Source: Tubulanus polymorphus (lineage: Eukaryota; Nemertea; Palaeonemertea; Tubulaniformes; Tubulanidae). From it: 64,000 nucleotides of DNA. Shown piece by piece: positions 48,901 to 51,900 of this stretch. The notes under the pieces are model-generated. The model was not told where the DNA came from. It saw nothing but the letters and a program-made list of their open reading frames with translations, and did not search any database. Position numbers and translations under genes: made by a program. Numbering within the stretch: position 1 is the first letter of the stretch; each line of letters begins with the position of its first letter. The stretch lies in the NCBI RefSeq assembly GCF_964204645.1, contig NC_134031.1, positions 496,001 through 560,000 on the forward strand. Reading direction: 5' to 3'.

Positions 48901-51900
48901 CCGGCCGCTGCGGAGAAACAAGGTATCATTTTTGTTTAGCCTAATGTATAGTATCTTCATGTGATGTATCATTCACCTGATGAAGTTTCTATACATGAGT
49001 AGTGAAAGCTTGTGCGTCTAATAAAGTAGTTACCGGTACACCTATATGATACTACCTGCCTCGTTTTATTTAGGCTAACTACAACTTTACTTATATTGTA
49101 GACGTAGTGAATGGATCCAGTCGACCTTTACCGGCTTCTAAATATATCACGCTTCCAAAAGTGAAGAAATCACGTCTTGGATTCGATCAGGTGATTTATA
49201 ACTACCGCATCTTACGACGACATCCAATATTCACGGTGTCGTTTATATTTTATGGTCTGTTTCAGATTTATGTGATTAATTTGAGACGTAGAAATGATCG
49301 CTATGAACGTATGATTAATGTACTCGATGCTATGGGTATAGAAGCTAAATTTATGGACGCCGTTGACGGCCAGTAAGTATTGAATATCCACAGCTCAGAA
49401 CCCTGTTCTACAGCCCGGAACCCAGTGCCACGGCCCAGGACCCTGTGCCACAGCCCGGAACCCAGTGCCACGGCCCAGGACCCTGTTCCACAGCCCAGAA
49501 CCCATGAATCCAGAACCCAGTGCCACAACCGCGGACCCTGTTCTTCAGCCCAGGAATCCACCACCCCAGGATCCACCTCTCCGGGATCCACCACCCCAGG
49601 ATCCACCTCTCGGGGATCCACCACCCCAGGATCCACCTCTCGGGGATCCACCACCCCAGGATCCACCTCTCGGGGATCCACCACCCCAGGATCCACCTCT
49701 CCGGAATCCACCACCCCAGGACATGGATGTATTTATAACTTAAATGAACTTTTTTCACAGATTGTTAAACGTGACCTACATGAAACAAATGGGAATTAAA
49801 CAGTTGCCCGGTTACGCAGATCCATATTGGAAAAGGTTTGTTAAAAATGATGAAAATCACAAATCAAGGAATACCGCGTTAATTATCAAAAACTTAGAAT
49901 CATTTTGAATCTTTATTTACAGAGATTTAACACGCGGTGAAATTGGTTGTTTTCTCAGTCATTACTTTGTATGGCTTGATGTAAGTACATTGTATGATAA
50001 AATAACAGTTTAGATTTCAGGGTTTGACGAATGGTGAAAGCTTTATCTGTTTTGGGGCAGGTCAATTATCAATTTAGGCAGTTTCACTCGGTCTCTACCG
50101 ATTCTGAAATTCTCTTCTGGCGCGTTTGTTTCAACCAGAATATGCTCCACCTATTCCATAATAGTATACTCTGTAAACCTGATAGAAGCGGCCGGTAGAG
50201 AGTTTGTAATCTGTAAACCTGATAGAAGCGACCGGTATAGAGTTTGTAATCTGTAAACCTGATAGAAGCGGCCGGTAGAGAGTTTGTAATCTGTAAACCC
50301 GATAGAAGCGGCCGGTAGAGAGTTTGTAATCTGTAAACCTGATAGAAGCGGCCGGTAGAGAGTTTGTAATCTGTAAACCTGGTAGAAGCGGCCGGTAGAG
50401 AGTTTGTAATCTGTAAACCTGATAGAAGCGGCCGGTAGAGAGTTTGTAATCTGTAAACCTGGTAGAAGCGGCCGGTAGAGAGTTTATAATCCAGAATTGA
50501 TATTCCTTAACCACAATACATTCAATCAAAACCTGTTTAATAGTACCCTTAACACCACTGAATTCTGCTGCTGCTGCTGCTGCTGCTGCTGCTGCTGCTG
50601 CTGCTGCTGCTGCTGCTGCTGCTGCTGCTGCTGCTGCTGCTGCTGCTGCTGCTGCTGCTGCTGCTGCTGCTGCTGCTGCTGCTGCTGCTGCTGCTGCTGC
50701 TGCTGCTGCTGCTGCTGCTGCTGCTGCTGCTGCTGCTGCTGCTGCTGCTGCTGCTGCTGCTGCTGCTGCTGCTGCTGCTGCTGCTGCTGCTGCTGCTGCT
50801 GCTGCTGCTGCTGCTGCTGCTGCTGCTGCTGCTGCTGCTGCTGCTGGTTGCTCAACTATTTGATAAATAAAACATTGCTGAAATATTTCAGGTGATTAAG
50901 AACAATTATAAACGAGTGTTAGTGTTTGAAGATGATATTCGTTTTCAAACGTTTTTTCATCTACGTTTGTTAATGTTGGTTCTCGATGCAAATCGGCACG
51001 TTCCGAACTGGGAACTCGTGTGAGTCGAACTCCCAATATACCTATATATAATACAGGTTTTAAACAACACACCCCGTAGGAACAAACACTGTAGTAATTG
51101 TAAATACATCGTATTGATGATACACTGTAAAGCATGAATTACTTATTCATTAGTTTCGTTAGTTATATATTAGTCATTGTCAACTACAAGTCATCGTGTA
51201 TAACTACTCAAAATCGCTGATATTATGAATTTTAAGCCCCCAGGGTCTCAGTATCACTGTCAAGGCTTTAAGATCATTTTGGATTTAAGATCATTTTGGT
51301 TCTATAGCTAATCTAAGAATTTAAGATCAGTCAGTTTTTCAGTGTTCTACTGAGCTCATGGATCTGGCTGTATGGTCAATACTGGTCTTATAATCAGTAA
51401 GAATTCAAGGGTCCTTTGCTTAGAAGTTTGTTAAAGTTAACTACTGAATAAAATGACAATATCATTTATTCACCGGTTAACTCTTAAACAACTTTAAAGT
51501 ACTGTGATCCTGGAATTATTGTTCTGGAAGTTGACAATGAGTTTTACGTATAATATCTCCTCAGTTTCACCACACGTAGAATTTCACTTGTAGTTCATAT
51601 TATGTATTTTAGTGTGTAGTGAATTAATGATTTCAGGCTGATTGATAGGAGTTTAGTAACGGTTTGTTTATATAGAATTGTAATATGTTTGTTTACTTAC
51701 AGGTTCTAGAGAACAACTACAGTAAAGTATTAGTATTTGAAGATGATATAAGATTTCAGTTATATTTCGAACACCGTCTTCAGTATTTATTTAAAGATCT
51801 TCAAAATCATTCTCCAGATTGGGATTTAGTGTATGTAGCGATGTGTGTTGTGTAAATACGTGCAAAGGGCTGATCTTGGAGGGAGAGAGATGAGAGATTT

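Follow-up and report, generated by a model that had tools for sequence, protein, structure and literature searches.

Results

Organization of the COLGALT locus

The window analyzed here is a 64,000-nucleotide stretch of the Tubulanus polymorphus genome (NCBI RefSeq assembly GCF_964204645.1, contig NC_134031.1, positions 496,001 to 560,000), and all coordinates below are counted from its first letter. A complete COLGALT/GLT25D gene is predicted on the forward strand from 45902 to 54075, with 14 exons including two alternatives, termed 11a and 11b, and with introns that are all of the GT-AG kind. In the gene model the start codon lies in exon 1 (45902–46128), followed by exon 2 (46679–46791), exon 3 (46883–46998), exon 4 (47211–47275; carrying, by comparison with the human protein, the first DXD motif, D-A-D, at human residues 166–168), exon 5 (47398–47678), exon 6 (48493–48612), exon 7 (49102–49190), exon 8 (49266–49372; where the GT25 domain begins in the Pfam scan), exon 9 (49761–49835) and the constitutive exon 10 (49923–49980). 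The alternatives 11a (50892–51019) and 11b (51703–51830) come next, and the constitutive exon that follows them (53106–53312) is the thirteenth of the model and the twelfth of the mRNA. The last exon, exon 14 (53787–54075), contains a polyglutamine tract encoded by 20 CAG units (53962–54021), the C-terminal YDEL and the stop codon. The predicted protein is 624 aa long with either isoform, and its YDEL end is presumably a KDEL-like ER-retrieval signal.

Both whole-length similarity and the GT25 domain place the product among the COLGALT proteins. With 585 of the 624 residues of the 11b isoform as the query, human COLGALT1 was matched in the PDB at E 5.7e-167 over query residues 35–571, and the match spans the whole C-domain for both isoforms (265.8 and 258.0 bits). 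Pfam PF01755 (GT25) scored 105 bits for the 11b isoform and 98.2 bits for the 11a isoform against a cut-off of 24. The likeness to human COLGALT1/GLT25D1 thus extends over the whole length, the EDD site, the first DXD and the KDEL-like end.

With the 11b protein as the query, a search of the genome (267.8 Mb, 77 contigs) returned at least 16 matches, at least 14 of them inside this gene; the two outside it are weak and partial (E 0.02 and 0.03; query residues 173–216 and 174–214). When scanned with the Pfam GT25 model, the genome gave three matches, which are exons 8, 10 and 11b of the same gene, and exon 11a was absent among them. The locus therefore looks like the sole COLGALT gene detected in the genome, the match counts being lower bounds. 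A tandem gene array was rejected, since the remaining exons were each found at one place in the genome search, again as a lower bound. Searches for COX1 and for molluscan haemocyanin came back empty, the second of them run without a positive control. Directly downstream of the gene lies a minisatellite array of 24/18-bp units (54937–55590), and farther on are open reading frames that resemble, by eye, a glutaredoxin or thioredoxin-reductase-like gene (55976–56434) and a kringle domain (58488–58823).

Exons 11a and 11b as a candidate mutually exclusive pair

To our knowledge, the segment encoded by exon 11 exists in only one version in human COLGALT1. The initial annotation had described two exons of 128 nt each at 50892–51019 and 51703–51830, with GT-AG splice sites and equal phases, and these coordinates and splice sites were confirmed, both exons being entered in phase 0 and left in phase 2. 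Its estimate that about 25 of 43 residues are alike also holds, as residues agree at 24 of the 42 whole codons and the split codon is a valine in both, while 73 of 128 nucleotides are identical. The aligned pair scored 131, against a mean of −38 (SD 16, maximum 26) in 20,000 shuffles, and the two exons match each other within the window at a tblastn E of 5.6e-14. Among the 14 exons used as tblastn queries against the window (E up to 1), a homologous second copy was found only for 11a/11b; the other non-self matches, the last exon aside, lie at E 0.035 to 1. The glutamine tract of the last exon matches the intronic CTG/CAG tract, which was taken as a repeat, and an identical stretch of eight residues, IRFQTFFH, shared by 29443–29466 and 11a (E 0.035) was read as chance.

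The reading frame remains intact with 11a alone or 11b alone. Joined, the two exons read GTG TTC TAG, as had been claimed, with the stop at codon 462, and skipping of both brings a stop at codon 422. Because both or neither would end the protein early, a full-length product would need exactly one of the two to be chosen per transcript, and each choice would yield a protein of 624 aa that has the EDD metal site and the KDEL-like end. Nonsense-mediated decay after frame loss would purge wrong splice products, and it would be expected to remove those of double inclusion or double skipping.

The 200-nt intron flanks of the two exons do not align beyond chance (scores of 11 and 9 against shuffle maxima of 15 and 11; 200 shuffles each), whereas the exons, aligned by the same method, scored 27 against a shuffle maximum of 17 (200 shuffles). 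Joint use of 11a and 11b, or a second copy created by misassembly, is extremely improbable, and no point in support of either was found: joint inclusion runs into the stop at codon 462, and with only 73 of 128 bases in agreement and surrounding introns that are unalike, the pair is far from an assembly duplicate.

Mutually exclusive exons are described, in the passages drawn on from PMC3228551, by similar length, frame, splice pattern, homology and position as neighbouring internal exons, and on the Drosophila X chromosome only 0.56% of non-exclusive exons show such features. The pair 11a/11b is internal, neighbouring and homologous, with ten exons upstream and two downstream, and like length, splice sites, frame, homology and non-terminal position were all found. 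These structural features are all common to 11a/11b and to mutually exclusive pairs that arose by tandem exon duplication, here as known from the genome sequence alone.

Splice sites and candidate RNA structure

Splice sites were scored with a matrix built on the other sites of the COLGALT gene. Exon 11a has a donor of 7.3 and an acceptor of 2.9, and exon 11b a donor of 4.8 and an acceptor of 7.1, where the remaining donors of the gene range from 1.2 to 9.8 and the remaining acceptors from 3.1 to 13.9; the 11a acceptor is the lowest of the gene. Of 191 intronic GT decoys, one reached the score of the 11a donor and 11 that of the 11b donor, and among 159 intronic AG decoys the 11a acceptor was reached by 11 and the 11b acceptor by one.

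The intron starts that follow 11a (51059–51072) and 11b (51843–51856), both on the forward strand, emerged from a pairing search as arms of a candidate RNA stem with 13 of 14 bp, which would loop out 11b. Dinucleotide shuffles of this flank pair matched the stem in 0 of 300 and 5 of 2000 cases, but this pair ranks first among the 190 flank pairs of the gene, and the stem is for that reason a weak lead only. Competing RNA structures, such as the docking/selector system treated in PMC6071210, are a feature of only some genes with mutually exclusive exons.

Several repeats lie in the neighbouring introns. The intron preceding 11a contains a tandem array of 40-bp repeats (50087–50526) and 94 uninterrupted CTG units (50565–50846), the latter ending 45 nt before the exon. 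This CTG tract and the CAG tract of the last exon are the only CTG/CAG tracts of at least 6 units in the window, and they could pair in the pre-mRNA. A gene-specific regulatory role of the CTG tract is unsupported, such tracts being common in the genome: (CTG)20 gave 4267 forward and 3649 reverse matches against 621 and 576 for the control, counts in which overlapping registers of one tract recur and which are not numbers of separate tracts. The intron after 11b contains a large imperfect palindrome (52712–52949; arms of 72 nt at 92% and 27 nt at 100%), which is perhaps a small mobile element.

Selection on the two copies and their age

Between 11a and 11b, 25, 31 and 15 of 42 sites are identical at codon positions 1, 2 and 3, and the corresponding Jukes–Cantor distances are 0.58, 0.32 and 1.46, so that the third position is near saturation; by NG86, dN is 0.43 and dS is not computable. 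In neutral simulations started from 11b, with indels left out, an open frame together with at least 24 identities was obtained once in 4000 runs at 0.5 substitutions per site and never in 4000 runs each at 0.75, 1.0 and 1.5. Near-saturated third positions, introns that are unalike and a conserved protein together suggest that both copies are old and have been under selection.

With the human protein as the outside sequence, a hand count gave 16 sites equal in all three, 13 that differ in all and 8 that group 11a with 11b. Three sites (430, 461 and 463) unite 11b with human against 11a and two (443 and 457) unite 11a with human against 11b, and by this balance of private sites neither copy looks relaxed. 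The distance between 11a and 11b is 0.56, and those of the two exons to human are 0.79 and 0.85. The grouping of sites and the distances indicate that the duplication probably postdates the split from vertebrates, gene conversion aside, yet it would still be old, and wider relatives of the organism may be expected to share it.

The weakest acceptor of the gene, the long CTG tract that ends 45 nt upstream, the loss of D-W-D and the absence from the Pfam genome scan could be taken to mean that 11a is unused or decaying and that functional transcripts all use 11b. We consider this improbable, as 11a has an open frame, an exact length and a good donor (7.3, a score that 1 of 191 decoys attains), codon positions 1 and 2 are conserved while the third is near saturation, and private changes are balanced at three against two. 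We infer instead that both exons are actually used in RNA.

Catalytic motifs encoded by the two exons

In the consulted part of the review PMC13382579, the metal site of the human GLT25D1 C-domain is given as E435-D436-D437, and the double mutant D461A-D463A of the same protein is reported as inactive in passages of PMC3244457. The location of 461–463 is confirmed by the primer table of the latter paper, and the N-domain placement of these residues in the review excerpt is at odds with their position in the sequence. Both motifs are encoded by exon 11. EDD is identical in 11a, 11b and human, and D461-W-D463 is retained in 11b and replaced by N-W-E in 11a. In the stretch after EDD the variable face is more hydrophobic in 11a, the mean hydropathy of the 12 variable positions within 442–458 being 0.58 in 11a, −1.38 in 11b and −1.05 in human. 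Owing to N-W-E and this more hydrophobic face, the form encoded by 11a may be weaker, inactive or different in specificity.

The vertebrate paralogue CEECAM1/CERCAM, which lacks the DXD motif at 461–463, is inactive on collagen and has S461; restoring D461 alone gave no rescue and D461 with RMQV, in a CEECAM1 chimera, a partial one, and the study does not say that every member needs RMQV (471–474), which is present in most animal GLT25D1/2 (PMC3244457, in the passages used). In the Tubulanus gene the place of RMQV is taken by ILYV in the common exon 53106–53312, and both isoforms are thus devoid of RMQV. Exon 11b appears to encode the more canonical collagen galactosyltransferase; it too departs from the vertebrate pattern through ILYV, and even this form may differ somewhat in behaviour from human COLGALT1.

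The initial annotation had further proposed that the swap could change substrate or donor preference. A donor change is unsupported, the EDD metal site being identical in both exons; more plausibly, the swap would alter how strongly the enzyme catalyses or how it recognizes its acceptor or partners. With EDD identical and the differences located in D-W-D and the variable face, a change in activity would be as likely as a change in preference.

It has also to be weighed whether splicing acts as an on/off switch, with the 11a form essentially inactive as a collagen galactosyltransferase, in the manner of CEECAM1/CERCAM, and serving as a scaffold or competitor. The inactivity of the human double mutant and S461 in inactive CEECAM1 (PMC3244457, passages) speak for such a switch, and two of the three sites at which 11b equals human and 11a does not are 461 and 463. 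The contacts of GLT25D1 in the LH3 complex named in review passages (residues 40, 41, 42, 46, 185 and 277) fall outside the exon-11 segment, so that the 11a form could still join the complex. However, the exchange of D for N or for E is mild, the double alanine alone was tested in the human enzyme, D461 restored alone gave CEECAM1 no activity (both from passages of PMC3244457), and 11a keeps EDD at a cost of only 6.8 bits against Pfam GT25.

A comparison with GT25 relatives bears on the same question. From 83 loci, namely 80 viral (of 125 relatives from an alignment scan) and 3 bacterial, matches were obtained for 82, which left 59 distinct rows (57 viral, 2 bacterial), for which action on collagen is not known. 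E435 and D437 are invariant in all 59 rows, and at position 436 a D stands in 57 rows and an E in 2. Columns 461 and 463 border gaps and many rows are close relatives, hence the following counts are non-independent: position 463 is D in 29 rows, N in 18, E in 6 and other residues in 6, and at position 461, 30 rows have a gap, 8 a D, 7 an N and 14 other residues. DWD as a universal GT25 motif was rejected, as 461 and 463 vary among the viral relatives. With N or E at 463 in 24 of 59 rows, either residue there fits a GT25 protein. Taken with the points above, an essentially inactive 11a form is rather unlikely, and altered activity or acceptor use appears likelier than plain inactivity; 11a would most likely tune catalysis or acceptor binding, giving altered to reduced activity.

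Discussion

Overall, we consider it likely that exon 11 was duplicated in tandem in the sole detected COLGALT gene, probably after the split from vertebrates, and that the copies are spliced in a mutually exclusive manner. The proposal that the GT25 catalytic region of COLGALT contains mutually exclusive exons thus stands by the sequence tests of frame, homology and constraint, without its suggested change of donor. Weighing against an exclusive pair are the acceptor of 11a, the 11b donor reached by 11 of 191 GT decoys and the miss of 11a by the Pfam scan. Splicing would probably make two versions of the enzyme, the 11a version being devoid of a motif that the human enzyme needs. A further proposal, put forward only tentatively, is that the sole detected gene is switched by splicing between an active 11b form (DWD) and an inactive or re-purposed 11a form (NWE) through exchange of the exon that carries the C-domain metal site.

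In humans, active COLGALT1/COLGALT2 and inactive CEECAM1/CERCAM are encoded by separate genes (PMC3244457, in the passages drawn on), whereas here one detected gene has one variable exon; a switch between 11b and 11a, if true, would be the splicing parallel of the vertebrate division. A likeness also exists to exons 8A/8B of Drosophila PGANT9, a glycosyltransferase in which an alternative exon alters enzyme specificity, with the difference that the part exchanged in PGANT9 belongs to the lectin domain and that exchanged by 11a/11b is the metal-binding segment of the catalytic domain; PMC6115407 speaks of splice variants, and "mutually exclusive" does not occur in it. By title and start of abstract, the open-licence literature yielded no relevant mutually exclusive exons of COLGALT1, galactosyltransferases or glycosyltransferases. 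For a glycosyltransferase, exchanging the metal-binding segment through alternative exons looks unusual; in the precedent found, it is a lectin domain that changes.

Were both exons in use, the organism could change its collagen glycosylation through splicing instead of through separate genes, and the pair 11a/11b would be a natural experiment on the importance of individual residues near EDD and DWD, which the chimera study of 2011 had raised as a question (PMC3244457, as excerpted).
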